Origin: Branchiostoma floridae
Lineage: Eukaryota > Chordata > Leptocardii > Amphioxiformes > Branchiostomatidae
NCBI RefSeq assembly: GCF_000003815.2
Contig: NC_049997.1
Location: forward strand, 16,169,189 to 16,233,188
Direction of reading: 5' to 3'
DNA length: 64,000 nt
The notes beneath the pieces are model-generated. The model was not told the origin of the DNA. It ran no database searches and saw only the letters and a program-made list of their open reading frames with translations. Shown here piece after piece: positions 26,016 through 51,907 of this stretch. Positions within the stretch are counted from its first letter, which is position 1. Each line of letters begins with the position of its first letter. The translations under genes and the position numbers were made by a program.

Positions 26016-26043
26016 ATGGAGATGAATCAACGTTCCGTGCAAG
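26016..26043 (+). CDS. Alternative first exon a (MEMNQRSVQ|G)
   Basis: ATG plus 9 codons and one extra base, ending GTGCAAG|GTAAGA in phase 1. It has the same ending pattern (-Q, then G split over the junction) as six other mini-exons in the region. Spliced to a DEATH exon it gives ...VQ-GFS or ...VQ-GSN in frame. It lies upstream of DEATH unit A. Confidence 0.5.
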
Positions 26044-26579
26044 GTAAGACAATAATTCATCATCCGAATCTTGATTAATGTTTTTTCAGGAATGTGACTG
26101 TCTTGAGCAACAGAGATTCTCTCAAATTTTGGCTGTAGCATGTAGCTTCATTGGCTGTTCGTGTCAGGCCATGAAAATTTCAGGTTTTGAAATATCGCAT
26201 GGTACTAACGTTCAACCTTATATAACAACTTAAGTTTGATGATTTTTTTTGTTTGTTTTCTTGTTCATCACTGTAAATGATTTCTCTTGTAGTGATAATA
26301 CGTATAATTTAACATACATGTCTGTGTGCATGGGTTTCAATTCTATTTGGCAAGGAAACAAAGAGAGGCTTAATTGGGTAAATAGTATTTTTGTCCCTTA
26401 CTATATGTCATGCATGGTTAGAGCTATTTAAAATGCTTTCATTTATAATAGCCTCAGTGTCATGTAAAAAGCTCCGTGACGTGAGTCGGTTTCTTTCGTC
26501 CTGTGCAGTTCTGACGGCATAGATCTAATTGCGCTGCGTTCGCCTTTAAGTTGTGTGCAGCAAGTTGTGCGTGCGTGAC

Positions 26580-26667
26580 ATGCAAATTTTTGGTGACGTC
26601 ATCAAAGTGGTCCTCATGCTACCAAAGTGTGCGTTACCAAACGTGATTGACATGAAGGGGAATCCCC
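26580..26667. promoter_or_regulatory. Octamer and kappa-B-like words
   Basis: ATGCAAAT (26580-26587) and GGGGAATCCCC (26657-26667) match the Oct and NF-kappa-B consensus words. They lie 0.6 kb after first exon a and 2.7 kb before first exon b. Function is inferred. Confidence 0.4.
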
Positions 26668-26734
26668 AGGTTATTCCCCTCAGTCGGGTCATAGGTCGCA
26701 TGGTCGGATGCTCTTTCCGGTGTCCGTCTTAAAC

Positions 26735-27201
26735 TACAGTCAAACCTGCCCAAGCGACTACCTCTTCTTAGCGACCACCTGGCCATTATGACCGTTTTTT
26801 CTCGGTCCCGAAAATTTCCCCATTGACGTAAGCATTAAGCGACCTCTTCACAACAGCCACCTAGCCAACGCGACCACGACCGCCAAAATAGGGACCACAT
26901 CCCTGCCCATAATGACCGCGTCATTTTCAAATCTTGAGGTGTCATTTATTTCTAATGATAACTAGCGCGATTTTGTGCCGAATTCGGCCAGTTCGACTAC
27001 CATTACGAAAATTGTTATGTTCGAACAAAGATGGCGGCGGATGCGCGTGCGTGTGCTTGATTTGATATTAAACACAACGGAAACCATTTATACTATGCAT
27101 CGGGCATGTTGTGAGTCGGTACTCTTCTATCCGACCACCTGACCGAATCAACCACTTTTGCCCGGTCCGCCGGCTGGTCGTCTTGGGCAGGTTTGACTGT
27201 A
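26735..27201. mobile_element. 467-bp TA-flanked MITE
   Basis: The ends are inverted copies, TACAGTCAAACCTGCCCAAG and CTTGGGCAGGTTTGACTGTA. The interior has repeated GCGACCACCT-like words. TA at both borders suggests a Tc1/mariner-related origin. The ATGGCGGCGG inside is not called as a start. Confidence 0.8.
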
Positions 27202-27323
27202 CTTTGAGGCGACGTGCAGTCATAGATCGATCCCGAATATAGTAGTATTTATCATTATTAACCATTAAGAGAGTGTCTTCATTTCCGCCTAATATTTGAA
27301 AACTGTAAAAAATAACCCATCGC

Positions 27324-27596
27324 TAACCTGGAATCCAGTCTCCTTGTGGCACGGCCTATCGTAGTTAGTGTAGGCTGTCTACGGGGCCAGTGTAGCTCTC
27401 AGCCGCCGGGTCAATCGTTCACACCCGGTAGGATTTTCACGCGGTTAGACTTTGCCCAGTTGGAGTTATTACCCTACCACGTGAAAATCCTACCGGGTGT
27501 GGCCGATTACCCCGGCGGCTGAGAGCTACACTGGCCCCGTACAAAGCCTGCACTAACTACGGTAGGTCGAACCACAGGAGACTGGATTCCAGGTTA
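27324..27596. mobile_element. 273-bp palindromic TIR element with 9-bp target duplication
   Basis: The two halves pair over about 110 bases each (TAACCTGGAATCCAGTCTCC on the left with its inverse at the right end; CACACCCGGTAGGATTTTCACG with its inverse nearer the centre). ACCCATCGC flanks both sides (27315-27323 and 27597-27605). A left half recurs at 30363-30529 and weaker relatives near 29718 and 37223. Confidence 0.85.
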
Positions 27597-27790
27597 ACCC
27601 ATCGCATGCAGCGCTGAAAAAAAAGCCAGAGAAGCGCGGACAAAAGCACAACAAGCTTCGCAGCCCATGCCTTCTCACATTCTCACAGAACGACCACTTT
27701 TAAAAACCCGGTCACTAGGGTAGGAACAGTGGCGCGGACCAGTAGTAATCATTTATTGGTCAACATACGGAGGAAATCCTTATCAAACAT
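27597..27790. repeat. Duplicated intergenic module, copy 1
   Basis: CCCATCGCATGC-AGCGCTG, GCCAGAGAA-CGCGGAC, CAAAGCACA or CAAAAGCACA, CAGTAGTAATCA and TTTATTGGTCAACA occur in the same order at 46846-47050. The two segments are diverged but collinear, so the neighbourhood was duplicated. Confidence 0.65.
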
Positions 27791-27799
27791 TTTGACAAT

Positions 27800-29040
27800 G
27801 TTTTTGTAGATTTCATGGTATGAAGAACACAACCCACACATGTCTGACCACACTTCACCTTGTTTTTCTCGCCACAAACCTACTGATTTTCAACAGAACG
27901 TCGACTGGGAAACAAGGACAATTATTTAAAATTTGGTCGAAATTGATGAAAGACTCGGCACTATATATCTAATCAGACATGTTTAAATCCTTTTTCAGGA
28001 CGTTGTATTTTCCATTAGAACAATGTAATTGCCTGTTGATTTTATATTATCTGGAATTGACGGCAGGTAAGCTCAACAAACCTCAACGTACGAAGACTAC
28101 GTTTGTAATTATAACCACGTGAATGATTAGACCTTTATTGTACATTTCTGCTATCACAAGGTAAGTACAAGTCATAATGATGTACGACCGCCGCCAAGTT
28201 AGCGATGACTTGATTATCCAAACGCAAATATAGGACATCCGCCCAGCGATCCGGCATGTAGTTCCGGGTCTAAAACTTGAAGATTTATTTCTTGGAAAAA
28301 TGGGTAGAAATTTTGCCAGTTTTGAGGTCAACATGACTGGGGAAGGTTTCTACTTTCTGATTATGGCCAAAAAGCTGAGTTTTTGTGGTTATCAGGGGAT
28401 GTAAAGTGGGCCCCTTCCCTTGGCGGTTATGCGTTTGAGGGGGTGGGAGGGTTTTGTGGTACATGTATTTTTCTGCAAATTCTGCCGTAAGATTTCTAAT
28501 GACAGTTGAGATGATGGGCTTTCATATGAGAGTAAGATTGTACGCCAGTAACGTCAGAAAGGTGAGTTATTGGCCCTGTCTTTCTGTGCCTTTTTGTGTA
28601 CATTTCAATATACCAGGCATCGACTTGCGGATCCCCTATATTTGTGCCTGAGGTTATAGTGAACAATACAATCCATGACCTTCGCCAAGGTAGCGACAAA
28701 TATACTGTAAACAAACACTGTACGTCACGTATGATGAAGTAGAGCTGAAATAACACCTGGGAGAGTCGATCACTCGATCACAAACACTGTACGTCACCTA
28801 TGATGACGTAAGAGCTGAAATAACACTTGGGAGACTAGTCGATCACTCGATCAAAATCGGTCTAAAAGTTATGACATGCACGGGGGTACATTGTTAGTCT
28901 GAATAGCATATTACTATCTTCCAATGGGATCTGACGGTCATCAAAACAACAAAACAAAAAACCAAAAGAGGAGACTCAAAAGGTTTGCCGCCGTAACTGA
29001 CCGAATATTTATCTTGCAGCATGATTTAGTTCAAGCAATA
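27800..29040. repeat. Spacer with a 69-bp tandem duplication
   Basis: From 28711 to 28853 a 69-base unit (ACAAACACTGTACGTCAC ... GGGAGA ... CGATCACTCGATCA) occurs twice with few changes. The rest of the spacer has no recognised gene. Confidence 0.6.
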
Positions 29041-29071
29041 TAGTACTGTGACCAATCACATGACCTCCACA

Positions 29072-29081
29072 CCTTATTTGG
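29072..29081 (+). promoter_or_regulatory. CArG box CCTTATTTGG upstream of first exon b
   Basis: A perfect CC(A/T)6GG word 290 bases before the ATG of exon b. It sits in a segment (CACACCTTATTTGGGC ... GGCTTCCCCA) also found before exon e (38171-38180). SRF binding is inferred. Confidence 0.45.
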
Positions 29082-29361
29082 GCTTGGCTATTTTTAAATA
29101 TGACGTCACTGACGTTATAGAGTACTCGCTGTATATCTTACATGTGCAAGGCTTCCCCATTCGTCAATTCAACCAATTGGCTTGCAGAGAACACATCGTT
29201 GACATGTACAACACATTCTTCTACTTGTGCAAAACACCTACTGGAGTGTCGGAGTACTTGAGGGGTCATTTAGCGGCAAGTGTGTTGGTCTGGAACTTTG
29301 GAAGCAAAAAGTGTGCCCCAGACAGGTCGGCTGAGCTGACCTGTGATTCTCTAACCTACAT

Positions 29362-29401
29362 ATGTCTGACCAAGAACTGAACCCCCGACGTGCTGTACAA
29401 G
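29362..29401 (+). CDS. Alternative first exon b (MSDQELNPRRAVQ|G)
   Basis: ATG plus 13 codons and one base, ending GTACAAG|GTAATA, phase 1. It is the last first exon before DEATH unit A (31026) on the plus strand, so it is the most likely partner of that unit. The bases after the donor (TACGATATAAA) match those after exons d and e. Confidence 0.55.
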
Positions 29402-30151
29402 GTAATACGATATAAATGTGTTTTTTTTAAATTTGTTTTTCAGAATGTCAGCGTCAGTAGAGAAATTCAGTTCGTACGGTTGGACAATGATAATGTGTGT
29501 GCAAACTGTAAAGATCGAATTAACATTGCATTTCTATACATTTCTGTGGAGTTCTATTGTCAAACACTGAGGGACTAGGGCACGCAGGTTATGGTGGGCA
29601 TTCTGTCATGTCCTCGGGCCGACTAATTTACCACCTACCCACCCACCAAATATCATCAGCATCATGGACCATGGCCGGACCATGTGTCTGGTATATAAAT
29701 TTACAGTTGTGTAACTTGGCTAACCTGGTATCTAGCCAATCGTGGACTGGGTGGGCTCTCTTCGGGACTGTAGAAGATTTCCGCCGCGGAGGTCACCTGT
29801 GGCACTAGGTAGTAGTTTTACGTGGTTGGAGGTAATCATATGCCTGAAACTAAAGTTCTAAAGCCAAAATCCTGTGACTAGTGACATCTTACCATTACAT
29901 GTATGGGGAGTTCACCGTTATCTTTAAGGTACTGAGAGTGAGAGAGCATTAGTGACAGTTCATTAGCATTTTTATTGGGTTAGAAGCGCTCTTAGAATGC
30001 CAGTTAAAAAGCCGGACAGGCTACGATGCTTCGCAGACTGGGCCCTGTGAAACAACACTAAACCGACCAGCGGCGAATGGTGACTAGGATACACCGTCTG
30101 TATATTCCTGTGAAATTCTATCGACAAGCACTGAATCACCAGCCCAGTACA

Positions 30152-30352
30152 GCCTATCGTAAGCCTCTTCGGACTTCTTCGGTGCGCGGGCGGCGTGTTG
30201 CCCGCCCGTCCAGGTCACTTAGTGCGCTGTGGGATATTTTACTCTCCAAACAGAGCTTGGTGGGGAAAATCGTGACCTTTTCCTTTCGTATTTTTTTTTT
30301 CGACCGGCCTTCCCGCCCGTCCAGGTCACTAGGTGCGCTGTGGGATATTTTC
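30152..30352. repeat. Duplicated CG-rich module
   Basis: TTGCCCGCCCGTCCAGGTCA and GTGCGCTGTGGGATATTTT occur twice here (about 30198 and 30311). Similar words recur near 46711 and 50437, upstream of other exons of the family. Confidence 0.55.
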
Positions 30353-30362
30353 CAGTGCTTAG

Positions 30363-30529
30363 GTAACCTGGAATCCTGTCTACTTGTGGCACGGCCTACC
30401 GTAGTAAGTGCAGGCTCTCTACGGGGCCAAAGTAGGTCTCCGCCGCCGGGATAATCATTCACACCCGGTAGGATTTTCACGCGGTTAGACTTTAGCCCAG
30501 TGAGGGTTAATTGCCGGCCACCATGTACT
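30363..30529. mobile_element. Left half of the palindromic TIR element, cut by the gap
   Basis: The sequence from TAACCTGGAATCCTGTC to ACGCGGTTAGACTTTAGCCC matches 27324-27450. It runs into the run of N. Confidence 0.7.
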
Positions 30530-30856
30530 NNNNNNNNNNNNNNNNNNNNNNNNNNNNNNNNNNNNNNNNNNNNNNNNNNNNNNNNNNNNNNNNNNNNNNN
30601 NNNNNNNNNNNNNNNNNNNNNNNNNNNNNNNNNNNNNNNNNNNNNNNNNNNNNNNNNNNNNNNNNNNNNNNNNNNNNNNNNNNNNNNNNNNNNNNNNNNN
30701 NNNNNNNNNNNNNNNNNNNNNNNNNNNNNNNNNNNNNNNNNNNNNNNNNNNNNNNNNNNNNNNNNNNNNNNNNNNNNNNNNNNNNNNNNNNNNNNNNNNN
30801 NNNNNNNNNNNNNNNNNNNNNNNNNNNNNNNNNNNNNNNNNNNNNNNNNNNNNNNN
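30530..30856. other. Assembly gap (327 N)
   Basis: Unknown bases; may hide the rest of the TIR element or another first exon. Confidence 1.
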
Positions 30857-31025
30857 AAACGTCCCAGTGACGCAAGTTTAGTACTAGTGAGATACCATTC
30901 TAAGCCATTTCATGTCTGCCAACTATACAGGTAAAACAAACTTCACATATAACTACACTTATGTACATTGATGTTAATTGAGCATATACAGTATGATATT
31001 GACAAAACCCCACATGTCATTCCAG

Positions 31026-31138
31026 GCTTCAGTATAACCCAGGTCCTAAACAGACTGGCCGGGGAGGTCGGGTCTCGGCAGTGGAAGAAAATCGCCAGAG
31101 AGATCGGACTGACGGATCCGGAGATTGACGCTATTGAG
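31026..31138 (+). CDS. DEATH unit A, exon with N-terminal half of DEATH domain
   Basis: Acceptor TCATTCCAG|GC, donor ATTGAG|GTATCG; 113 nt, phase 1 to 0. The peptide GFSITQVLNRLAGEVGSRQW continues KKIAREIGLTDPEIDAIE, the helix 1-3 pattern of a FADD-type DEATH domain. Phase 1 entry fits every mini first exon upstream. FADD normally has a death-effector domain before it; none is seen here. Confidence 0.8.
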
Positions 31139-31145
31139 GTATCGT

Positions 31146-31164
31146 TTTCTCTCTCTCTCTAAAC

Positions 31165-31210
<46 letters not shown>

Positions 31211-31595
31211 CCTCATTTTGTCTCATTCTTTCTCTCTTCTGTTTCTCTCTCTCTTTCTCTCTTTCTCCCTCATTCTCTCCCTCTCATATTTCTCTACCCT
31301 ACCCCTATTTCTCTCTCCCACAATTTCATTCCTTTTTTAATCTTTTCCTTTTTAAAAAAAAATTCACACTCTTCTCTATCACACCCCTTCTCTCTCTCTT
31401 CCTTAAACCAAGGAGGTTATATCACATGTGATATAACCTCCTTGCTTAATCGTCGTTGCATGCGTTTGTTTCTGTGTCGTTTACTCGCTTTTAGTATGTG
31501 TGTATGCTTGTATGTATGCGTGAGTCTATTAGATTAATGTGTTTGTGTGTGTGTGTGTTTGTGTGTGTGTGTTTGTGTGTGTGTTTGTACGTATG
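31146..31595. repeat. (CT)n then (GT)n microsatellites and a 36-bp perfect palindrome
   Basis: A CT-rich tract (about 31146-31400) begins a few bases after the donor of DEATH unit A. A perfect palindrome (31409-31444, centre ACATGT) and a GT-rich tract (31540-31590) follow. The homologous intron of unit B has CT-rich then GT-rich tracts in the same order (51000-51215). Confidence 0.85.
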
Positions 31596-31813
31596 TGCGT
31601 TTGTTTTTATTGAGATTGCGCTATGTACACAAGATACTGTTGTTATAAATCGTCGATGCTATTTTTGAGGCACCTCAGTACTAGTATTAACGTAGAAAAG
31701 CAACATCGGTAAGGGATGATGTTCGAAGTCCGTCATTTTTGATTGTGATGTTTACATATAACTGTCATTCTCCTTTGCTTACAAAACATTCTATATTTTA
31801 ATGCTTTCAGACT

Positions 31814-32001
31814 TAGGTCACATTTCCAACCCGGGCCCGACCGGGAAGTTTTAAGAAACGAAAAATTAAAATGTATACCTAGAAATATATACAAATCATG
31901 CTCATGATTCTAATTTTTACATTTTGTGTATTTTGATTTCTATCATTCTTTATGTTCCCAAAAGCTGCCCGGCCGGGCCCCGGTTTGGAAATGTGACCTT
32001 A
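31814..32001. mobile_element. 188-bp TIR element in the DEATH unit A intron
   Basis: The left end TAGGTCACATTTCCAACCCG pairs with CGGTTTGGAAATGTGACCTTA at the right. CCGGGC-type GC words lie just inside both ends. It is absent from the homologous intron of unit B. Confidence 0.7.
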
Positions 32002-32117
32002 GCCTTACTCAGGATTGTAAGCATATGAATCTCCATGAAAAAGTGCGTCTTCAGTGTTTTTGGCGACGCCTCATGAACGGGTGCTTTGTCTTACAGTTTT
32101 AAATTTTTGGTTCCCAG

Positions 32118-32281
32118 GACTGCGAACGCACGAACCTACACGAGAAGGTGTACCAGACATTCCGCCGGTGGAGGATGAAGAACGGCCGGCGGGCCACTCT
32201 GGACGTCCTGGCTGGACATCTGCGGGCCATAAAAATGACAGCCCTGGCCGAAAAGCTGGAGGACATTCAGAACCAAAATGG
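32118..32281 (+). CDS. DEATH unit A, exon with C-terminal half of DEATH domain
   Basis: Acceptor TGGTTCCCAG, donor AATGG|GTAATC; 164 nt, phase 0 to 2. It encodes EKVYQTFRRWRMKNGRRATL, then DVLAGHL and ALAEKLEDI, the helix 4-6 pattern. If the donor is not used the frame stops at once (GGG TAA), so both outcomes give a DEATH-only protein of about 100 residues. Confidence 0.8.
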
Positions 32282-32632
32282 GTAATCATTTTCGTAAGAA
32301 AAAAACTCGTTTGCGTTATTGCGGAGCTGGGAAATACTGCAAGAAACCTTAGACTGCATAGTAACAATTGGATGCAGCAAAATCAACAGTTAATCATTTT
32401 ATTTCATGGTTTGGCTAAGACACGAACATTATTCGTCCCCATTTTGCTGCTGCATTGGTAATTCTTCTATAGTCTGATGTATTTATACATGATTACGGGG
32501 GGGAAATGAGATTTTCAGAATGAAATAATTTTGTGAATCCGTATCATCCTTTTTCAATATCACTTGATGTTATTCTTTTCACACACTCGTTTTTATTCCT
32601 TAAGTGATATTTTCTATTCTTTTTCATTTCAG

Positions 32633-32642
32633 ATTTTCGTGA
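32633..32642 (+). CDS. DEATH unit A, last coding bases
   Basis: Acceptor TTCATTTCAG; joining to the previous exon gives Gly-Phe-Ser-stop. With a 25-nt first exon the CDS is 312 nt (103 aa). The homologous acceptor in unit B (TTCATTTCAG at 52241-52250) follows a stop codon, so there it is only 3' UTR. Confidence 0.5.
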
Positions 32643-32880
32643 GCTTGCTGAAATCAACCGGGACAGGCGTATAGACCGTGTATCGTACCTGATACTGTAA
32701 CATTTTGCTGGTTTAGGTTTGAGTTTGATGAACTGTAGATATTACTATGGACAACACATAGAAAAATTATTCTGTCGGACCTAATTGAATGCTCTACTTT
32801 GCTTGTTGTTAAGTGGCGATTACTGACGGAGTATTACGGTTCTGTGTGTGCTGCTGTAAATGACTCGCGGTTTTGACTTA

Positions 32881-32886
32881 AATAAA
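32881..32886 (+). terminator. Polyadenylation signal AATAAA, DEATH unit A
   Basis: The hexamer lies about 240 nt after the stop. Homology to unit B continues beyond it to about 33260, so a later poly(A) site is possible. Confidence 0.4.
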
Positions 32887-34674
32887 TCTATGCAATTAGC
32901 GTTAATGATGCCATAGAACAAGTTTAATGGTGTGCCTTCCAGGCAGTATGTACCCATATAGGGAGGGCAAAGGTTACCATGTGGCCATTAGGAGAAAATG
33001 ATAGTGTGTAATGTTCTCTGTTCTTGCATGTATATCTCGCATTTCAGGGAAGGGGTTGGTGGATAGTTATGGTTACAAGTTGTATATATTTTTCTACCTA
33101 ACTGTGAAACAGTTAATCGTAATCCATAGGTTATCTATTAACGACTTAATGACAATCTTTTAAAGAAATTTTTCTAATGCCTTTCTCAGGTAGTGTGTAC
33201 GGATTACAACATTGTGTTGTTCTGTGCTGAATATATGCTTATCAACATCTTGTGACGTCATTGTCATTTGGTTTTATTTCAAATAGAATATTTCGTCGTA
33301 CTTAACTCTAAAACTAGCATAGAGAATATTTATACATATTGACGATAAGGTAAATAAAAACAGAAAAACCAAAGATGATAGACTTAATCTCACTCCGAAT
33401 CTATGCGGGGGCAGATATACGAGTATGTGACATTGCGGAATTATGTCAGTACGTGTTATCTATGAAGAAAGGCAGACCCATCGTTTTGTCTCCTGAGTAG
33501 CTGTATTGCGTGATCTGATCCCCGGTCCTCAAACCTAACATGTAACACCAACGTGCACGCTTATACATGTATTTTTCTGTCAAGGTCTACCATTGGTTGG
33601 CACATAGAAGCGAGAAAACCTTTGTGTACATAAATTATGCACATGTGCTTCGGAAAAAAAAAACACTTGCATCGCTACATGTACACACTACCTCTCGATC
33701 TCACAGCAGTCTTCCCAACGCTAGTTCATCTTTATCCTCGGGATAACAGATATCCGCTATATTCAAAAACAGTTTAAGGTTATACACAGTGGTCTTACAT
33801 TGCAATAAATTCAAAATACTACAGTTTGAAACCACCCTTTTTCAAATTAATATGTACTAAATACTTTCTTTCTAAAATAACGAATCATTTGTTACAGTCA
33901 AATAAAGCTTGGGAATGGGAGCGTTCTCTAGTCTGTCACCTTCACGGCCACACTCCCTTGGGAGTACAATGGTGGCAATGTTTATGTCGCTTCCTTTTGG
34001 TTGCTTTTCTACTCAACAAACATTTGAAGACCCATATTCATAGTGTTTTATGGAGCTTTATTTATGTGTATCATGGCAGTTGTGTGACTGCTTGAAAGAG
34101 TTCGTATAGTTAGCGACACGAGCCGCCAATACGCAGAGGCCGGTGACCGCAGTGATTCAGCACTGTCAACATTACTGTTAGAATTCTGTTTTTAAAAAAA
34201 ACATGAAGTAAATATATGTTAAAGTATATTTGGAATTCAAATTAAAACTGTGTGGATGGACTTGGTTTATTTACCTTTGTAATCAGCATAGTCAGTGGTA
34301 ACAAATACGGTGTACTTATGGATAATAAGATCAGTAAAAAATCCGTGCCATCTTACGACGGGAACCGTCTTAGGGCGGCCCCCGTTAGTTACTTAGTAAC
34401 AAGCATAAAGTCTTTCAAGGCTCGAATCTGAAGAATTCTGGTTGGAGCTGTAATGTATTTCGGAAGGGATGTAAAATGGGGGCCCAGTGTTCGAGGATTT
34501 GCCTCGAGCACGTTACAGCAGCCTATAATTGCTCGAATTGCACCTGTGCATTTTACTGTAATAGTATAGCAAGGTCAATGATATCCACTCGCTCAACTGC
34601 CCTTACTGCGTCACCCTTCATTGTTTTTGACGACGCCTCAGGGGAGTCGTCAAGTGATATATATTAGGTACAGT
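32887..34674. other. Spacer; 3' homology to unit B, then nothing recognised
   Basis: Up to about 33260 the sequence is collinear with 52550-52880 (GCCATAGAACAAGT, AATGCCTTTCT, TCAACATCTTG). At 33718-33830 lies a truncated copy of the element at 4899 (AACGCTAGTTCA ... ATATTCAAAAACAG). ORFs here have no domain. Confidence 0.5.
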
Positions 34675-35365
34675 CTGCAAAAATTCTAGGAATTGCATAG
34701 GCATTTTTCCACAGGAATGCTAGTAGTCCGCAGTATGCTGGGTATGCAATCCCCCCTCCCCACCCAAATCTATACCAGATGTAGGCATGTTAAATGGAAT
34801 TTGGGTCATGTCCTGGCATGTGTCCACAGGCATGTTTGGAATACGGCCGTGGGTCAGAGACCATGGTTGGTAATCTTGGTCCGAATCACGGCAGGCTTAT
34901 TTTGTACTGCCAGCTGTAAGCGCCTTCGATGTCCACTGGATCCCTTCAATTTCCAGAGTATATTTAGGATTTAGAGTCACAGAAAAAATATTCTGTGTTC
35001 AATGCAAAATAAATTCAACAGATGCAAGGTCATGTGTGGTGCGTCGTGAAGCCTGAGCCATTGCTATTATCTTAGCCTATTGATATAGGATATAATCCAG
35101 TATAGTACTGAGAAATCTTTCAAATTCTGCTGTGTTTTACTTGTCAGGACACAGCCTTACAATCTTGCATTCCAGGGACATCGGCTTTGTGTAGAGTGTT
35201 CAGTGTAGAGCCAAATGGCAGTTCAATTTGCAAAAATTGTAGGAATTGTACAGGCATGTTTCCACAGGCATGCTAGTTCACAGACATGTTTGGAATGGAA
35301 GCCTCGAGGTATGTTAAATGGAATGTGGGTTATGTCCTAGAATGCCTAGAATCAGGGGACGGCTG
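34675..35365. repeat. Diverged tandem duplication, unit about 540 bp
   Basis: TGCAAAAATT-TAGGAATTG, CAGGCAT or TAGGCAT, TCCACAGG-ATGCTAG, and CATGTTAAATGGAAT or TATGTTAAATGGAAT with GTCATGTCCT or GTTATGTCCT, occur at 34676-34820 and again at 35222-35345. Confidence 0.6.
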
Positions 35366-35929
35366 GTTCAGAGAGCATGGTATGTAATTTTCTTGGTCCC
35401 AATCACATTTGTTAGTGTGGAGCTCAGGTCAACAGGCGTTGTTTTGTGTTGTGTATCAAGGTCAGTGATTTGCTGATGGGGTCTACTCTGACTTACGAAT
35501 CAGAGGTTTACTAGCCTGGAGCACACCTGTTTTTTTCTCTTGCAGAACATAGGTCTTGCAGTTTGTCAGGGTAAATTCACTATACTGGGCAATAGGAAAG
35601 GAGATGGGAGGTACATTGTACAATCATGAAACTCTTCTTGTGGGAGGTGTTGCATGCTTGTTTAGATTACAACTGTATTACATCCCTGTTATGTCAATAA
35701 TGCATAGTTATTTGTATGTGCAAGAGCTTCATACTCATGTCATAGGAAGCTTAGGTGAAGGTAAAAATAATAATGCGCTAATCCTATTCATTACAACAGA
35801 ATTGTGTCAGGGTCAGGGATAGTGCGACAGGGAAGTTCCAGTCTATTTCTGAGTTGAGCTGTATTGTTGTACCCTCAATCGTCGTCATGGCAATAATACA
35901 TTTTTATTGCCAGTCTTGTTTTTTTTTTT

Positions 35930-36145
35930 CTATTTGCTTTTTGGACAGACGAGGACGATGTGGCACTGCACTCAAGTTTTTTGTAACTTATATTAACAAT
36001 GCCACATACACGGTACAGACAGAAGGAAAGTCGCGTAAAGTGCCTTTCCCAAGGGCACAACGTCGGGGGCACGGTGGGAATCGAACTCAGGACCCATAGC
36101 CGAGCCGAACGCTCTACCAGTTACGCCACGCCCGACGCCACGCCT
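35930..36145 (-). mobile_element. tRNA-headed V-SINE-like element
   Basis: On the minus strand the head has an A-box region (TGGCGTAACTGGTAGAGCG, 36110-36128) and a B box (GAGTTCGATTCCCA, 36075-36089). GTGCCCTTGGGAAAGGCAC (36040-36059), the conserved central V-domain word of V-SINEs, follows. The tail reaches into the T-rich tract near 35920. It is not a tRNA gene: the stems do not pair properly and the SINE body follows. A tail-only relative lies near 36390-36510. Confidence 0.75.
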
Positions 36146-36350
36146 TCATTGTTTGTCTTGGTCAGGCGACGTTTGGTACTTTTCGTTGTGTTCACCTTAG
36201 TTTCAAACTTTACCAGTCCAGCATATTCACCCCAGCCCTATTTGCAGCTTTGCAACTTAGCTAAAACTGTGCCCTCGTAGTTAATCGTATCGTACTAAAC
36301 GCAAAACTCCCATGTTGTACGTAGTCGATCTTTCTCTGCGAGATATAGAA

Positions 36351-36375
36351 ATGCACGTTCGAAGTGCTGCGCAAG
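36351..36375 (+). CDS. Alternative first exon c (MHVRSAAQ|G)
   Basis: It is preceded by GAGATATAGAA like exons d, e and f, and ends GCGCAAG|GTAAGG, 25 nt, phase 1. A longer in-frame start exists at 36312; I prefer 36351 because it aligns with the other members. It lies downstream of unit A and upstream of unit B, so it can only serve unit B on this map. Confidence 0.6.
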
Positions 36376-36666
36376 GTAAGGCTATTAAAGGTAAAGTGTT
36401 TTGTTTATTTCGTTATCTATTCAGACAAGGACAATATGGCACTACAGTCAAGTTAATAACGTATTTTAACTGTGCGATATACAAAGAACAGACAAAAAGT
36501 AAAGGATCCATTATATTTTTAGACCGTTGCTTTAATTGGGGCAGTGATTTGCTATTCATTGTGTCAAGGTCGCCGTGCCCGACAAACATGACTGACCTTA
36601 CTATTTAAGCGACAGGCTACGTGGGCTCGGGCTACAACTTACAAGTCAGCAATATAGACGTCACAG

Positions 36667-36677
36667 GGGATTCCCCT
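36667..36677. promoter_or_regulatory. Kappa-B-like site GGGGATTCCCC
   Basis: A perfect palindromic-type NF-kappa-B consensus word 399 bases before the ATG of exon d, just after AGACGTCACA (CRE-like). The same 11-mer occurs before exon g. Confidence 0.45.
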
Positions 36678-37065
36678 ACGGCATCACGGAGGTGGTAAGA
36701 ATGGGTCATGCAATTGCATTTTAGGGGTGATACTGATAGTCAATTTTAACTTCTCGTATCTAGCCATGCTTTGATACCTACCTTTGTCATTTTAGCAGGG
36801 TGGTGTTTTATAGCATTATGGCCTTCCCCATACACCAGTCATGGTTCACAGGTCAAGCACTTTCTTCCTGCTTCTTCTCTCTATGCGCCCCCCCCCCCCC
36901 GCCCACTGTTTATGTTTGGATGGTACTGTCTGAAATAGGGCAATGTGTATTGTATCCAATTCCAAACAAAAACTGTGGAGCCTCGAACAAGTCGGTCGCG
37001 CTTGACAGCGCAAATTTAAACTTTCCGGATATATTCTACTCCGTATTTCTGTGCAAGATATAGAA

Positions 37066-37090
37066 ATGGACCTCCCAAGTGCTGCACAAG
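37066..37090 (+). CDS. Alternative first exon d (MDLPSAAQ|G)
   Basis: 25 nt, phase 1, ending GCACAAG|GTATGA, preceded by AAGATATAGAA. The 5' UTR (CTCGAACAAGTC ... CGCGCTTGACAGCGCAAA ... ATATTCTACTC) aligns with that of exon f (CTCGAACAAATC ... CGCGCTCAACGCAAA ... CTATTCTACTC). Confidence 0.65.
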
Positions 37091-37199
37091 GTATGACGAT
37101 ATAAAGATTATTGTTAATAACTTTGCTTATATATACATTTAGAGAACTTTTTAACCTTCGTAGTTGACTTCATATGGGGACGGTCAGTGTGTTATATCC

Positions 37200-37887
37200 G
37201 TGATTCCGTCGCTATAAAACTTAGCTAACCTGGTACCCAGCCTATTGCGGATTGGGCGGGCTCCCTTCGGGGCCATATGAGCTCTCCGTCGCCAAAGTCA
37301 AAGATAACACTCGTTAAAAATTACGCGGTTGAAGTTAATTCGCTCTGCACGTGGATCGTAATAGTATTCAGTTCGACCCCATAGCACACTGGTATGGCTA
37401 TACATGTATGTGTACATAAAGGTGGATCTTTAATTTAAAAGAAATTTTTGCAAGTGAAGCATGTAATCATATGGGGAAAGTCGGGCAAAAGAAGGTGTCT
37501 TTATTAAAACTTCCCCTGAGATGCTTACCCTTTTTTTAAACTGTCAAATACAATTCTGAAGAACTCTATACAGCTAGTCCACAAATGCCCTACAATCAGA
37601 GTCCTTGGATTGGTCTTGTACGTTCAAAACAGCTAATCACGATTAATACACTATATGTAATAGTGGCCGGTGCGAAAAAACTCCAAGATGGAGAAAAGTC
37701 ATTTTTCTATCTATGTACTAGCTAACAGGTCACCAGAAACACACCTACACTGCGCCACCAGATACCCCCCATTGTTTGCCTTGCTCGGGTTACTAGCTTA
37801 GCACTATTCCATCATGGTATCAATCATTGGATTGGTTCCATGACTCCAGGAGGCGGGACATGAGTCATTCGGGTTGTCACACACACG
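37200..37887. other. Spacer with a relative of the palindromic TIR family
   Basis: TTAGCTAACCTGGTACCCAG near 37220 resembles TTGGCTAACCTGGTATCTAG near 29715. Both are followed by GGGCGGGCTC or GGTGGGCTC and CTTCGGG. No gene seen. Confidence 0.4.
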
Positions 37888-38170
37888 GTCATGTTTACAG
37901 GGTTGTTTGTTTTTTATGAACACGGATATCGATGTGAGAAATTAAACATCTATAAAGAAATGCAATCGTTTTGTTACCATCTAATAAAATATTTGACTTT
38001 CCTGTTGTTGTTAACAAACGTGTTGTGGTTTACAGACTGATTTGTATGTTACTTGTTTGCTGCCCTTCCCTGTTCGATCGAATGGTGACTTCCATTTTTC
38101 TTGGCGGCGGGTTGGAGCTACGACCGCCAATGACCGCCAAAGTTACGTCATCACACGTGACCACACCACA

Positions 38171-38180
38171 CCTTATTTGG
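38171..38180 (+). promoter_or_regulatory. CArG box CCTTATTTGG upstream of first exon e
   Basis: Identical to the word before exon b; 253 bases upstream of the ATG. It is followed by a TATA-like ACTTATAACTT (38190-38200). Confidence 0.45.
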
Positions 38181-38423
38181 GCAAGGGTACTTATAACTTA
38201 CTAGTATATACATGGCTTCCCCACTGCCTACGAACCGTCGGCTCTACTACAGTATCATCTGTACTACTGGTATGATCGTGCCCAATCATCTACCGTCGCG
38301 GGGGAGTACTGCATGTGTTATATAGTGGATTGGGTGTCTGGAAACTAAACGGCACATTTGACGATGGCTCAACGCAAACTTTCTTGTGACACTCTAAACT
38401 TTATTTCTGTTCAAGATATAGAA

Positions 38424-38448
38424 ATGGATCTCCAACGTACTGCACAAG
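38424..38448 (+). CDS. Alternative first exon e (MDLQRTAQ|G)
   Basis: 25 nt, phase 1, ending GCACAAG|GTAATA and preceded by CAAGATATAGAA. Its far-upstream flank matches that of exon a and its proximal flank matches that of exon b. Confidence 0.65.
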
Positions 38449-40159: not shown

Positions 40160-40190
40160 ACAAGATGGCCGCCATCCAAGATGGCGGCTC
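40160..40190. promoter_or_regulatory. Paired inverted YY1-like words
   Basis: CAAGATGGCCGCC and CCAAGATGGCGGC lie side by side, the second overlapping the ATG at 40181. AAGATGGCGGC at a start codon is a known core-promoter/translation-initiator element of short-5'UTR housekeeping genes in animals. Confidence 0.5.
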
Positions 40191-40265
40191 TTGGTGGAAA
40201 CCCGAAGTGGGTGCAAGAAAACAGACCACTGCTCACCGGGATGGTCATGGATGACTACGCACAAG
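40181..40265 (+). CDS. First exon of a possible micro-gene, or first exon h
   Basis: The ATG has ideal context (AAG ATG G). The frame MAALGGNPKWVQENRPLL... runs 28 codons plus one base to the donor ACAAG|GTACGT, phase 1. The last residues (MDDYAQ|G) resemble the mini first exons, so it could be an eighth member feeding DEATH unit B. Alternatively it joins the acceptor at 42550 to make a 38-residue protein. I do not recognise the peptide. Confidence 0.4.
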
Positions 40266-40569
40266 GTACGTATAGGCGGGAGATACGTGTGTCCTTTATC
40301 TTTCATGACATTGATACTTCTATGAGGAGCCGATTGCCCAATTTCTACCGAATATACCCTATGAGACATAAGGTTGGAGCCTCTGGCGACATCAATCTCG
40401 ACTTGAGAAAGTACGTTACCTCCAAATCGCATTTAAACTCGTTTTGTCAATACTACTACATGGACCCCTAGCACACGAAAAATTTGAGAGTAATCGATGC
40501 AGCAGATCTCGAAAAATTCAATGCACAATGTATTTGCCCCCCTCCCACCCTCTGCAGCCAAGGAGACAA

Positions 40570-42549: not shown

Positions 42550-42581
42550 TTGAAGGACAGAAAATTATTGGTTTGCTCTGA
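42550..42581 (+). CDS. Possible last coding exon of the micro-gene
   Basis: A strong acceptor (CTCTCTCTTTATTTTCCAG) precedes TT GAA GGA CAG, which joins exon 40181-40265 in frame to give VEGQKIIGLL-stop. AATAAA hexamers at 43473 and 43546 could end a roughly 0.9-kb 3' UTR. It is supported only by splice signals and phase. Confidence 0.3.
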
Positions 42582-45576: not shown

Positions 45577-47357
45577 TAATTAACGTTAGATGATTTTCAC
45601 AGTGGAATTATTTCACAGGAAATCTGTTTTTTTCCCATTTACTCCATTGTTTTTCTGGGACGAATTTGGAAAGTGACCTTATCATATTTCGACATTGTTT
45701 GGCTCAATACTGATCAGGAAAGCACCCAACACAATGCCCCTACATTACGATGCGTCAGTATAGAACAAACTGCAGGAAGTAGAAATTTCAATTTTGCCGC
45801 CACAAGTTTGTACCCATCATCCCTTGCGCCTGAAACAAGCCTCGATTTCGTGGATGCCGGCGTTTCCATGGCCTGGTTCTGATCAGTCGCCGCGGTGACC
45901 GTGCTGACGTTTTTGTTGTCATTCCCCCCCCCCCCCGATTTACATAATAATCGTCATCAATTGCCACCGCAGAAGCAAAAAGAGTCCGAAATATATGCAT
46001 TTTCAAATGCGTAAGACACTTTCAAAATCGTCTCCGGCAAGCCACTCAGATCCCACGAGATTTCTATGCGATTTTATAGGAGCGCGAGCCGCTTCACGGA
46101 GAAAGGCAAATCGGCAGCCAGGTACAAATAATTTTGCGATATTGTTTGTGTAGCGTGGCTTCGTTTATGAATATTAAGAAGGAGGAACTAGCCTTCGTTA
46201 GGTTTGTCCTCAGTGGTAGTTACTAAAAATAGTAAAAGATGTCCCTGAAGTGAACTAGACAGCCACAGACATGACAAAAAGTTAGTGTTTATATATATAG
46301 TTTGCTTCTCAAATTTGCTCAGATATGGCTCTAAAATGCACCAAAGAACCTCTAATTCTTATAAATTTTCTGGGGGAGGCCCCCCATACCCCCCCAACGA
46401 GAGGGGGGAACCCCCCTCTCGTGCTCTCCCCCCGCGCAGCTTGCGCTGCGCGGCCGCGGCCTTCGGCCGCGTCATGGTGCGCGCCCCCCCTTAGCAAATT
46501 TCTGGATCCGCCAGTGATCAGGGCGCGCTCCGAATGTCACCCGCTCGCCAGTGGAAATGAGATTCTTTGGAATACATAAATATCCTGTCGTTTATTTCGA
46601 ATTCACACCATTGCCTTTCTATACACTCCTGTGGAGGTCCACTGGCAAACACTAAAGCACTAGCCTGGAACCGGCCTATCGTGGTTGTCCCGACATCTCC
46701 TCGGTGCTGGGAAGTTGCCCGCCCGCCGAGGTCATATAGCACGCCCCGGCACGACATCGATATCGGGTTTGTGAAAGGCTTGCAGTGTCCTGATTATGAC
46801 TTACACTATTCACGCGCGCGCGAACAAACCCGGCTGTAAAGATATCCCATCGCATGCGAGCGCTGGAAAAGGCCAGAGAAACGCGGACCAAAGCACAAGT
46901 TCCGCAGTGCTTGGCCTCTCACGTTCTTACAGATCAATCACTTATTAAACCCAGTGCCGGCCTACGGTATCGGGAGGGGGGAGGAGCAGTAACACGGGTC
47001 GCATTACAGTAGTAATCACAAACCCATTGTATTTATTGGTCAACAAACGACTACCTGTTCCTGGTGGGAATCATAACTTTTTTGGCACTTGCGTGCGATT
47101 GGTCGGCGGTCGGGCCAGCGCATTTGCTAAAGGGGGTGAAATTTATGGAGGGACTGTAAGTCACTTGCATTACTTCAGAACTTCTCTGCTTTTATTTCAT
47201 TAAAGGCATTTTGGTCCTAAAGATATTATCACGCTTAGTTAGGCAGTCCCAACTGTTATTGCAACTGGTGGTAGAAATGCTTTTGCTTGTGTCTTTCACG
47301 TTACCTCACCTATCTTGTACAAGTTCGTTCCAAAACGTGTTGGTGACTGCAACGTAG
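45577..47357. repeat. Spacer with duplicated modules and a GC-rich block
   Basis: 46370-46495 is an extremely G/C-run-rich block with inverted GCGCAGC/GCTGCGC and GGCCGCGGCC words. 46517-46553 is a piece of the 38.9-kb minisatellite. 46711-46760 resembles the CG-rich module near 30198. 46846-47050 is copy 2 of the module at 27597. No gene is seen. Confidence 0.55.
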
Positions 47358-47368
47358 TATATAAATAG
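47358..47368 (+). promoter_or_regulatory. TATA box TATATAAATAG upstream of first exon f
   Basis: A consensus TATA word 162 bases before the ATG, followed by GGAAC repeats (GGTAGGAACCAGAGTAGGAAC). It is the clearest core promoter of the first-exon family. Confidence 0.55.
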
Positions 47369-47519
47369 GAACGGTAGGAACCAGAGTAGGAACAGTGCAG
47401 GTGTCAGGTAGTTGGCAGTGCGTTTTGTCCGAAAACGAAAAGTGTGATCTCGAACAAATCACTCGCGCTCAACGCAAACTATTCTACTCTTAGACTATAT
47501 TTCCCTACAAGATATAGAA

Positions 47520-47544
47520 ATGGACCTCCGAAGTGCTGAGCAAG
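47520..47544 (+). CDS. Alternative first exon f (MDLRSAEQ|G)
   Basis: 25 nt, phase 1, ending GAGCAAG|GTAAGA, preceded by CAAGATATAGAA. The 5' UTR aligns with exon d. Best candidate, with g, for initiating DEATH unit B. Confidence 0.65.
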
Positions 47545-49150
47545 GTAAGACGATAAAAGCTAAAGTGTTTTTATCTGTTTCACTACAAGAAGGACTTGGT
47601 ACTTTTTTAAATCATGTTGTTTGTGAGTATTATGATTTCCAGCAGAGCCCATTTTGTTCGGTTGCTGACTAGAAACCGAATAGAATACGCATTGGGTACT
47701 TTATCGATCATATCAAAGAGCTTTCCTCAATGGAAGCTCCTTACTCATACAAGTTACAGTAACAAACCTGGTGTGTTGTGCCACGGAGTGATTGACCGGG
47801 TATACCATGCAATATACTAGTATAGGTATATTAAAAGATGATCCTACAGTAGCTCTTCGCTAATGAAAATTTACTCTGGCACACAAGAAACGAAGATTGC
47901 CCATGTTTCTGCATGAATTTGTGCAAACGAACTGTATTACGGTAAGCGACCGGTGATACTATATGGGTATTTTGACAACTGTTGTAATATTACGTATCGA
48001 TGCCAAAAGACGCTATATTACAGTTTTTTTCTATATCGTAAGGAGGTTTGCTTGTGATTAATCGTCGAATATAGCATGTCAGTATTACGCAATGTTAAGT
48101 TCAAATCTCAAAATGTAAGTCCTAAATAAGGTAGGTCATTTCAGCGTGTATTTGCAAGGATATTCCCCCAGCTGTCAATCAACCAGTGGGACAAAGCCAC
48201 TTTCAGGTTGCTGTTTCCCTATTGGTGGAGTGGAAGTTGACCTTTGTCCTTGTGGTATCATTTACCTGGATTATTTACTTTATTTGTCTTCGTTTCCATT
48301 GTAAGAGTATGATTTGAATAGGCTATGTAAAAAGGTCATATACTTGAAGTTAAACCCCGAATTTTTCATACTTTTGCATCTACAACCATATGAATGACAA
48401 CCCCGCACTGTTTTTACCCTACATTATTATCCTAAGAATGTCATGCTTAGCATTGGGGGAAGTTAAGAAGTCAGTTTGGATGGCTGGCTGGTAAGTCGCC
48501 AAATTCAACCACCGGTGGCCTTGCTCGTCGTGAAGCTTCGCGGAACCTTTCGTGAAACCTCGAGTCACGCGGAAACTTCGTGCAACAATTGTGAAATAAC
48601 TCTTATTGACGGGGGAATCCTTGCTGCATGTCGGCACCAGTCACTCAGTGTTCGTACGTGCGTTGGTGTTTTATGTAGACTTGCATCTTAGCCGTCTGTA
48701 AACAAGCCATGGTAGATTAGGTTTGGTGTTTCCTTTGTGTCCCCAGCCCCGTATGTCTGGGAAAGGAAGTTTTGCCACACTTAGAATCGTGCCCTTAAGT
48801 TCATCCACTAGATATATAATTTTCGAAAGGAATTTTGGCAAGTAATATTATTAAAAATTCTTGTTGAGAAACAGAAGCAAAAGTGGATCAATGAAAATAT
48901 CGTAACATATATTGTAACTTCTTTTATAACCATTCAGCATCAGGCGCTGATTTAACAATATGGCGCAGTGTTTGTCCCCCACAATGTAGTTATTCCATTG
49001 CTTTGTCGGAATCCTTGCATGTGTTTACTGTGTCTATTTCCTATGTTAACCGCATGCGCATTCGCCCCGCCTTGTATATGTTTGATCAATGTATTATGTT
49101 GAAGCTGACGGGATCATGAACACAACTATCGCATGATATAGGATAGATCA
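47545..49150. other. Gene-free spacer
   Basis: No recognised exon, RNA gene or repeat; ORFs up to 72 codons have no domain. Confidence 0.3.
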
Positions 49151-49153
49151 TAG

Positions 49154-49440
49154 TGTGGAGTCTGGTGGTGTAGTGGTTAACAGCTCCACCTGATTGACAA
49201 CAATGTCAAATTATACAAATAGATTTGGGTTCGAATCACCTGAATTTAGATGGACGGTGTGGGCAACCCTTTCTGATAGCGCCCATTGATCGTACAATAG
49301 TTCACTGAAAGTAAGAGCCCCCTATCTTGTAATGCTGTGAAGACGTGTAAACATAACATGCTTTGTAATGTAACGCGTGCAGATGGCGGTAAAATGGACC
49401 GCCCGAGTGTTTGGGCGGACCAAACAAACAAAAAACACAG
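49154..49440 (+). mobile_element. tRNA-headed SINE
   Basis: A-box-like TGGTGGTGTAGTGGTTAAC (49163-49181) and B box GGGTTCGAATCACC (49227-49240) form a tRNA-derived promoter head. A unique body follows, ending with GGTAAAATGGACCGCCCGAG and an A-rich CAAACAAACAAAAAACA tail (about 49422-49439). The family differs from the V-SINE at 36 kb. Confidence 0.7.
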
Positions 49441-49699
49441 CGTCAGATCACCTGATCGACTATAGAAGGCAGCATCTACCATTCAATATCAAGGGGTGGG
49501 AATAATACTACGTAAAATGGTGAGATTAGATGAGATCAAGTTAAACCACGAGAGTAATAAAACATCTAAAAACGCATATAGTAATCATACTCTGATGTTT
49601 GCAATCCACTCGCCACTTTACTGTGTACTTTACAAAATATATGTGGATTCTTGCTGTTCCTCCCTTATGTGTTCGCATGCACCTTATTTGTTCGGCGTT

Positions 49700-49720
49700 A
49701 TTTGCATAAGGGGATTCCCC
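49700..49720 (+). promoter_or_regulatory. Octamer ATTTGCAT next to kappa-B site GGGGATTCCCC
   Basis: ATTTGCAT (49700-49707) and GGGGATTCCCC (49710-49720) are two bases apart, 105 bases before the ATG of exon g. CCTTATTTGTTCGG, a degenerate form of the CArG segment, lies at 49682. Binding is inferred. Confidence 0.5.
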
Positions 49721-49824
49721 TCAAGTTTCAATATTCGGTTACACGTTATTGTAGTTGGTAGCAGCAGTGGCACGAAGCAGCACAAGGTACAGTTTAATGC
49801 TGCATTTCGACACAAATTATGAAA

Positions 49825-49849
49825 ATGGATCACCAAAATCCAATGCAAG
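49825..49849 (+). CDS. Alternative first exon g (MDHQNPMQ|G)
   Basis: 25 nt, phase 1, ending TGCAAG|GTGAGG. It is the nearest first exon upstream of DEATH unit B (about 1 kb). Spliced to 50875 it gives MDHQNPMQ-GSNLTIDRLF. Confidence 0.6.
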
Positions 49850-50874
49850 GTGAGGCATTAAAATGATTGTATGTAAATTATTTTTATATGATCTTTTGAG
49901 GTACTTGTTTGTCTTTGTGCAGCAAGTTGCACCACAGATTTAATTCGTTCGTCGCTAGTAATTTTGGCTCTGCCACACATACCATAATTATTCAAGCAGG
50001 CCTTGCGATTATCAAATTTCAAAATGTCACAGTGGCTCAAAGTTTTAATCCTATATAGTCAACGCTAATGTGTGATAATTTTTGTCGTTCTATACATTAT
50101 GGCGTTTTGCTTGTAAGCGAGAATGTATAGAACATGCATGGCCGTTAATTGTAATTTATTAAGTGAAAACATAGAGTCTTTTATGCCAAAAAGACAATTG
50201 CAGTTGGTAGCCGATAAAAAGGTTGTCTTTGTCAGGCAATGAACTTATTTACCTGGATGGCCACCGCTACCCTAGCGTTAGGTACTAGGTTAGGTTGTGA
50301 AGTTGATTTCTCGCTGGCAACCTGACACCATGACGTGCCTCGTGCACGTGAATCTTCGTGAAACCGAAGCACAGTGACCGTGCTTCGTAAAACCTTGTGA
50401 AACTTCGTGAGAATTCGTGCCTCGTGATGCGACGTGTTGCCCGCCCTTCCAGCTCACTCAGCGCGCTGTGGGCTATTTCGTTCCGAGTGCACGGGATTCA
50501 CTTCCACGTTGTAGACGACGGAATTTTTGGCGTGTCGACCTTTACCTTGTCGGCATTATTTATCTTGCACACCGCCCAATCAGCGCTCGGTATTCTCCGT
50601 CACTGGCCTGTTATTGGCTGACGTCGACGGTACAAGGTTTACTCAGTCATTCAGGGTCACAGTACAAGATGCTACATGTGAGCTCTAGTAACAAGCAGAA
50701 CATTTTGAAAAGTTGTACGGTATTTCAAGAACATTTCTTCGCACATATTGATTCCTTTCGCAATGACAGCTGTGGTCACTGAGGTGTTCTATGGGTGCAA
50801 AATACACACGTTAAATATTGACGTTAATTCAGCAACCTTTAATTTTATTGACGAAACCCCACATGCCGTTCCAG
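49850..50874. other. Intron between first exon g and DEATH unit B
   Basis: It contains a CG-rich module at 50437-50480 (TTGCCCGCCCTTCCAGCTCA, GCGCGCTGTGGGCTATTT) related to 30198. It also has short imperfect repeats of CTTCGTGAAAC/CGTGCCTCGTG (50330-50430). Confidence 0.5.
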
Positions 50875-50993
50875 GCTCGAACCTGACCATTGACCGTCTG
50901 TTCAACAGACTTGCCGGGGAAGTCAGGTCTCGTCAGTGGAAGAAAATAGCCAGGGAGATCGGGCTGACAGAGCCGGAAATAGACGCCATTGAG
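50875..50993 (+). CDS. DEATH unit B, exon with N-terminal half of DEATH domain
   Basis: Acceptor CCGTTCCAG|GC, donor ATTGAG|GTAGAG; 119 nt, phase 1 to 0. The peptide GSNLTIDRLFNRLAGEVRSR continues QWKKIAREIGLTEPEIDAIE. It is two residues longer than unit A and nearly identical after RLAGEV. Confidence 0.85.
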
Positions 50994-50999
50994 GTAGAG

Positions 51000-51300
51000 T
51001 CTCCCCCTCCATCTCCATCTCTTTCTCTTTTCTCTTTTACTACATCTTAGCAACCTATTTTCGTGCCCCCGTCGGTTTGTCTGTCCGTTTTTCTGTCGGT
51101 CGGTCGGCCTTTTAGTTGTGTTTGTTTATGTGATGTGTGTGTGTGCGCGTATTTGTGTATGTGTGTGTCTGTGTCTCTGTGTGTATGTGTGTGCGTTTGT
51201 ATGTGTGTCTGTGTGTGCAAGTGTAACCCTTTTCCTTCGTCTGCCTATCTTCCTTTAGTCCATCTCTCTCACTCTCTCTCTCTCTCTCTCCCTCACTTGA
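51000..51300. repeat. CT-rich, GT-rich and CT-rich microsatellite tracts
   Basis: The order CT (51000-51040), GT (51110-51215), CT (51265-51298) within the intron start mirrors unit A. The ORF through it is an artefact. Confidence 0.85.
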
Positions 51301-51748
51301 GTAGTATCACAACCGCAAAGCGGGCGTAAGGCGTTATCACCTTGTTATCTACATAAAAATAGAGATATTTGTTGGGGTCTGTCTGTGTTCATGTGTGTGT
51401 GCGTCTGTGTGTAGGGCAAAAGTGGGGTGTGTGCCTGAGGGGGTCTGTGTGTTTGTGTTTCCGGATTTTTAAAGTCACCATAACATAAAGTCACCGAGTT
51501 TCGTAGTCCTAGCTCGCGTCGTTCGGCAGTTATATAACGTTAATTTTGGCCCAGACACTTTCAGCCCCACCTCCCCCGTCTATATAGGGTCAAAGGTGTC
51601 ATAGCCACTTACATATTATACAGATGTTAAAGCCATATAAATAATCAGAATATTTCCTGGAGACATGAGGTCTCCGAAGTCTTGTTTAGATATCGATAGT
51701 TATATTTTTAATGACAAGCCATTTGTTACATTTCCTTTACATATCCAG

Positions 51749-51907
51749 GATCGTGACCGTACAAACCTGCATGAGAAGGTGTTCCAGATGTTTTACAAGT
51801 GGAGGATGAAGAACGGCCGGCGGGCCACTCTGGGCGTCCTGGCCGGACATCTGCGGGATATCAACATGGCGGCTCTGGCCGAGAAACTGGAGGACATCCG
51901 GAACTAA
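51749..51907 (+). CDS. DEATH unit B, exon with C-terminal half of DEATH domain and stop
   Basis: Acceptor CATATCCAG; 159 nt from phase 0 to TAA. It encodes EKVFQMFYKWRMKNGRRATL, then GVLAGHL, and ends ALAEKLEDIRN. With a 25-nt first exon the protein is 100 residues, all DEATH domain. Such a single-domain protein could act as an adaptor or as a decoy that blocks larger DEATH proteins; both are inference. Confidence 0.85.
   Translation, partial: DRDRTNLHEKVFQMFYKWRMKNGRRATLGVLAGHLRDINMAALAEKLEDIRN

Follow-up and report, generated by a model that had tools for sequence, protein, structure and literature searches.

Which part of a small, single-domain gene has been multiplied when several short, start-bearing exons precede its body? 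This question is raised by a 64,000-nt stretch of the genome of the lancelet Branchiostoma floridae (NC_049997.1:16169189-16233188, hereafter the window; genome of 513,431,437 bases in 431 contigs), in which two tandem units encoding a DEATH domain, gene 1 and gene 2, are accompanied by short coding exons that end in a phase-1 splice donor (Table 1). All seven mini-exons were confirmed, and they are homologous to one another. As a preliminary description of this DNA had proposed, they form an array of homologous coding exons whose phase suits the DEATH exon downstream; two of them lie ahead of gene 1 and the other five ahead of gene 2. Judged from the DNA, we consider it likely that the locus comprises two tandem DEATH-only genes and that the mini-exons are their alternative first exons, each with a promoter of its own.

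The mini-exons at 36351, 37066, 38424 and 47520 are referred to below as the core four, and those at 29362, 26016 and 49825 as the diverged members. The positions, the ATG, the CAA codon, the G/GT donor (the slash marks the exon border) and the phase given earlier were all exact in seven of seven cases, and a start codon with a phase-1 donor compatible with a constant body was thereby found in every member. The common length of 8 codons before the split Gly codon was retained for five of the seven, while 26016 has 9 and 29362 has 13. The leader GATATAGAA, previously assigned to five members, was found directly 5' of the ATG in four of the seven, and CGCAAA-type words occur in the same four. 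CAAGGT is the longest invariant run in the seven-member alignment, and all seven donors rank at the 97.1-99.8th percentile (that of 26016, AAG/GTAAGA, at the 99.5th percentile of all GT), on a scale of approximate human splice-site frequencies; the acceptor percentiles below use the same scale. An in-frame stop lies 18-78 nt upstream of each of the seven mini-exons, that of 26016 being a TAA 54 nt upstream. In 29362, the site aligned to the core ATG is CTG, which is replaced by an in-frame ATG 15 nt upstream; a TGA precedes this ATG by 18 nt. The alignment of 26016 contains a 3-nt gap, and the frame is preserved.

The shared CAAG/GT ending is by itself little proof of common origin because it is near the general donor consensus; the window contains 13 units that run in frame from ATG to CAAGGT over 6-14 codons (each nested start being counted as one), and 12 of these are on the plus strand. 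Relatedness is instead settled by sequence homology, beyond the shared design. Among the core four, five of the six pairs are 79-87% identical over 61-92 bp (E = 4e-10 to 3e-18), the weakest pair being 36351-38424 (77.6% over 49 bp, E = 1e-4). A sequence profile built from the core four alone, with the other three left out, was searched against both strands of the 64 kb, and it matched 29362 (33.5 bits, E = 1.8e-9), 26016 (20.1 bits, E = 2.7e-5) and 49825 (15.2 bits, E = 9.1e-4). Nothing else was significant on either strand of the window, the next match reaching 6.7 bits (E = 0.42), and the highest score in six control regions, each comprising 10 kb upstream of another DEATH exon, was 8.8 bits, as compared with 15.2-78 bits for the seven.

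As for the constant bodies, the exons at 31026 and 50875 were both confirmed to open with G/GC in phase 1, and in both genes a phase-0 intron splits the DEATH domain. Identity between the genes is 82% for exons A and B (93/113 and 135/165 aligned bases, respectively) and 77% for the 3' exon (518/674); AATAAA occurs at 32881 and 33353 in exon C of gene 1. In-frame stops lie 76 nt (31026) and 169 nt (50875) upstream of the exon A acceptors. One joined product per gene scored 61.8 and 64.7 bits for Pfam Death against a cut-off of 22.6, and no other Pfam family exceeded its cut-off in either product. FADD carries an N-terminal death effector domain next to its DEATH domain; a domain of this type was not found in the two joined products, Death alone being above the Pfam cut-off. 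The nearest solved domains of the gene 2 product by sequence were those of RIPK1 (8.7e-12), FADD (4.1e-9) and TNFR1 (4.9e-8). A genome search with the gene 2 domain returned strong matches to the two genes only, the next best of 106 matches being 35% identical (150 scored of 304 candidates).

In the reading that we favor, gene 1 could be started from 26016 or 29362, and gene 2 from 36351, 37066, 38424, 47520 or 49825. Every first exon would bring its own promoter, 5' untranslated region (UTR), ATG and 8-13 codons, and would be spliced in phase 1 to the first DEATH exon, with the mini-exons in between being skipped. The mini-exons would have been born by duplication of the first exon alone, and the product of each gene would be a DEATH-only protein of about 100-108 residues that, by analogy, probably serves as a small competitor or adaptor in DEATH-domain assemblies. 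Choice among the mini-exons would alter the time or place of expression more than the protein; indeed, expression control is the likelier purpose because the core peptides are nearly alike (MDLxxxAQG). The N-termini had been described as variable residues in the protocadherin sense; this does not apply to termini that are short and, in the core four, alike. Transcription, separate promoters, splicing choice and the role of the protein are what we infer here, and alternative first exons would best explain the strength of the donors together with the poor or remote acceptor-like sites at 29362 and 49825.

Several observations weigh against this reading. A TATA-like word is present within 300 nt upstream in two of the seven mini-exons only. 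At 26016, a clean acceptor-like AG stands at -4 (92nd percentile) with no other AG nearby, and the core four have a weaker acceptor-like AG at -2 with a second AG within the exclusion zone; the real exon A acceptors score the same as or below these acceptor-like sites. Introns of 12.4-14.5 kb would be required for three mini-exons. The bodies offer further possible starts: each exon A is preceded by one in-frame intronic ATG (30971 and 50763) from which a read-through start is conceivable, and ATG-to-donor candidates outside the mini-exon family account for three of five upstream of 31026 and six of twelve upstream of 50875. A phase-1 first exon fits both genes, yet other starts are conceivable because of these intronic ATGs and unrelated candidates. 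Within the array, an extra in-frame ATG lies between the stop and the named start of 36351 (39 nt), 38424 (60 nt) and 49825 (6 nt), and some mini-exons have additional upstream ATGs within 150 nt; the true start and the peptide length are uncertain because of the further in-frame ATGs in these three of seven. Among the core four, identity is 92-100% in the 12 nt preceding the ATG versus 69-83% in the codons, and 8 codons yield too few synonymous and non-synonymous changes to reveal constraint on the protein.

The history of the array was assessed from the mini-exons and their flanks, as had been suggested earlier. In gapped scoring, 26016 was best with 49825 (z = 9.0), its own best partner in turn being 26016, and 29362 was best with three of the four type I copies of gene 2 (z = 13-17). 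The tree likewise joined 26016 and 49825 with a bootstrap of 94% (94/98 under another model). This grouping stands as the better-supported one, but the tree by location, with 26016 beside 29362, was 9.3 log units worse and yet not rejected (approximately unbiased (AU) test, p = 0.11); the 26016-49825 pair sits on the longest branches, and an ungapped, donor-anchored comparison did not show the link (25/56, versus 36/56 for 49825-47520). In the flanks, the stretches 25662-25804 and 37885-38038 are similar to each other, and the block 29713-29795/37218-37300, considered as proof of a 29362-37066 partnership, was rejected since it also matches four other contigs. If the 26016/49825 grouping is right, each gene has both subtypes, and at least two starts were already in place when the genes were duplicated. 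This history is favored by the sequence comparisons, not proven, and an identical picture would result if individual first exons had been copied from one neighboring gene to the other. Duplication of whole genes with later loss of DEATH exons was rejected, relics not being found: no DEATH relic was detected between the mini-exons at a protein E value of 1 or less, and the sole nucleotide match in the array region was 18 bp at 34414 (E = 0.40). Five long open reading frames (ORFs) between the mini-exons and the DEATH exons (40010, 44186, 40372, 50411 and 30062) contained no Pfam family above cut-off, the scan covering these five and leaving aside the tandem-repeat ORFs at 38.8-39.9 kb. Because no relics were found in the intervals and the five scanned ORFs lack Pfam families above cut-off, the starts rather than whole genes appear to have been duplicated.

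A more elaborate version would make the locus a promoter-choice cluster in which a DEATH-only gene of innate immunity already had at least two subtypes of first exon before it was duplicated and both daughters kept them, with the dose of decoy or adaptor being set among up to seven starts and with gene 1 starts possibly spliced to the gene 2 body. The gene 1 starts are phase-compatible with that body. We regard this version as doubtful.

It is similarly unlikely that the copies are mostly fossils, that is, tandem first-exon copies of which one per gene is in use, perhaps the nearest (29362 and 49825), the others being relics. Dead copies arise readily by tandem duplication, the donors of 29362 and 38424 lack G at +5, and the scarcity of TATA-like words noted above would be in keeping with disuse. 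Against decay stands the retention of an intact start and donor in seven of seven copies. When one and the same rule was applied to real and simulated copies, 20,000 neutral simulations retained the in-frame start and donor in at most three of seven, and the maximum was again three when only GGT was required in the donor. The simulations followed the estimated tree, with a total of 3.6 changes per site, included 45 nt upstream, and assumed one ancestral start exon, no indels and a single rate across sites.

A further alternative, which we consider improbable, is that some or all of the mini-exons are internal, mutually exclusive exons behind a shared upstream untranslated exon and have no separate promoters. 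The clean AG 4 nt before the ATG of 26016 would suit an acceptor, as would the AG 2 nt before the ATG of the core four, which is conserved and falls inside the most conserved stretch; because such acceptor-like sites score about equal to the real exon A acceptors, this alternative keeps some likelihood. At each core site, however, the second AG lies inside the exclusion zone, and the best AG within 100 nt is remote at both 29362 (57 nt upstream, 42nd percentile) and 49825 (70 nt upstream, 74th percentile).

Whether the mini-exons occur elsewhere in the genome was also addressed. A 35-place type I pattern, allowing up to 3 mismatches, had four forward and no reverse matches in the whole genome, all in the array, and a reversed control pattern had none. 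A DNA search of the genome with 47520 returned the same four core places only, and one with 49825 matched itself alone. The core pattern and the 47520 search miss 29362, 26016 and 49825, the 49825 search misses 26016, and 26016 and 29362 were never used as queries; uniqueness in the genome is therefore claimed for the core type only, and diverged copies elsewhere are possible because the searches fall short of the diverged members. The idea that the core mini-exons are a piece of a dispersed mobile element is unsupported, given four genome matches that are all in the array. A pairwise scan of start-exon candidates gave no similar pair on the minus strand of the window or in six 10-kb control regions, a small sample given that 150 DEATH matches were scored out of 588 candidates; on the plus strand of the window it recovered, besides the core four, a tandem duplication at 9006/9440, and since its threshold loses 29362, 26016 and 49825, it would overlook a diverged array elsewhere. 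A non-exonic, locus-specific conserved element, regulatory or repeat-like, with an incidental ATG and GT is very improbable: conservation does peak in the untranslated GATATAGAA and at least one flanking similarity (37218-37300) is a dispersed repeat, but the genome searches gave no dispersed copies of either the core type or 49825, and start, frame and donor are what all seven retain.

The region at 40181, previously listed as a possible eighth mini-exon, does not belong to the array. It falls outside the profile, and the peptide of 29 residues encoded there is found at 18 genomic places including 40181 itself, 8 of which are identical, with several contigs represented. It is a dispersed repeat, probably a mobile-element exon that landed inside the array.

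Table 1. Exons of the two DEATH-encoding genes, their mini first exons as read here, and the repeat at 40181 (window coordinates)
Feature	Coordinates	Strand	Remarks
Mini first exon, gene 1, subtype II (candidate)	26016..26043	+	MEMNQRSVQ+G, phase 1; another ATG in frame at 26022
Mini first exon, gene 1, subtype I (candidate)	29362..29401	+	MSDQELNPRRAVQ+G; profile match and alignment
Gene 1 exon A, first half of DEATH domain	31026..31138	+	Phase-1 acceptor; no Met
Gene 1 exon B, second half of DEATH domain	32118..32281	+	Pfam Death E = 8.7e-18 on joined product
Gene 1 exon C	32633..33381 (end approximate)	+	Last two residues FS, stop, 3' UTR; from alignment with gene 2, acceptor TTTCAG
Mini first exon, gene 2, subtype I (candidate)	36351..36375	+	MHVRSAAQ+G; core family; extra in-frame ATG at 36312
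Mini first exon, gene 2, subtype I (candidate)	37066..37090	+	MDLPSAAQ+G; core family
Mini first exon, gene 2, subtype I (candidate)	38424..38448	+	MDLQRTAQ+G; core family; extra in-frame ATG at 38364
Mini first exon, gene 2, subtype I (candidate)	47520..47544	+	MDLRSAEQ+G; core family; TATA-like TATATAAA at -162
Mini first exon, gene 2, subtype II (candidate)	49825..49849	+	MDHQNPMQ+G; extra in-frame ATG at 49819
Gene 2 exon A, first half of DEATH domain	50875..50993	+	Phase-1 acceptor; no Met
Gene 2 exon B, second half of DEATH domain	51749..51912	+	TAA stop at 51905-51907; Pfam Death E = 6.7e-17 on joined product
Gene 2 exon C, 3' UTR	52250..53005 (end approximate)	+	From alignment with gene 1 exon C
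Repeat inside the array	40181-40267		Peptide MAALGG..., phase-1 donor; repeated genome-wide

The window as a whole is rich in DEATH exons. At 4234-6596, a CARD exon (Pfam E = 9.6e-17) is followed on the same strand by a DEATH exon (E = 7.4e-11), and the two may form a gene of CARD-DEATH (CRADD-like) architecture in the neighborhood of the DEATH-only pair. Additional DEATH exons were found at 8468-8674 (E = 3e-17) and 10737-10949 (E = 3.2e-6), and the direct duplication near 9006/9440, with a spacing of 434 bp, contains DEATH fragments. A segment that ends 2.4 kb before 26016 (23153-23641) encodes the C-terminal portion of a kinase domain (Pkinase, E = 7.2e-12). On the minus strand, an open frame at 7-948 matches the herpesvirus tegument N-terminal family PF04843 (E = 1.8e-7) and is perhaps part of a mobile element, and a single open frame at 61587-63266 contains 19 tandem C2H2 zinc-finger matches.

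Alternative gene starts are a known trick, and here they look like the same trick in an unusual setting. The innate-immune networks of amphioxus are described as reshaped through domain shuffling (PMC2575513), and its caspase family as expanded to 45 members (PMC3196919). If used, the array would represent another route to complexity, in which starts are multiplied before a minimal DEATH protein. It would also be a clean case of duplication of the first exon only, so that regulatory divergence could be read against a constant protein. In the open-licence literature, going by titles and the opening of abstracts, no account of this locus was found among reports of alternative first exons or promoters in lancelets.

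At the level of the protein, the closest comparison is with CARD-only and PYRIN-only proteins, which have been described as competitors in signaling (PMC3775265). The lancelet DEATH-only proteins would resemble them in consisting of a single death-fold domain for which competition is possible in principle; unlike them, the domain is a DEATH domain, nearest to those of RIPK1 and FADD by sequence.

At the level of gene architecture, the locus had been likened to the protocadherin and UGT1 clusters. Clustered protocadherins and the chelicerate sDscam (shortened Dscam) genes combine tandem 5' units and promoter choice with variable extracellular domains (PMC5775551). Diversified recognition domains of this kind were not found in the lancelet array, where the variable part amounts to 8-13 codons from the named starts and shows little diversity, the core four being alike. 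Plectin-type first exons are closer than the variable domains of protocadherins or UGT1: plectin has a dozen short coding first exons (PMC8468861), and multiple variable first exons of this type are the closest architectural parallel to the array. The two differ in that plectin is a giant cytolinker whereas the body behind the lancelet array is one DEATH domain, and in that the lancelet first exons are recognizably homologous tandem duplicates with near-constant core peptides.

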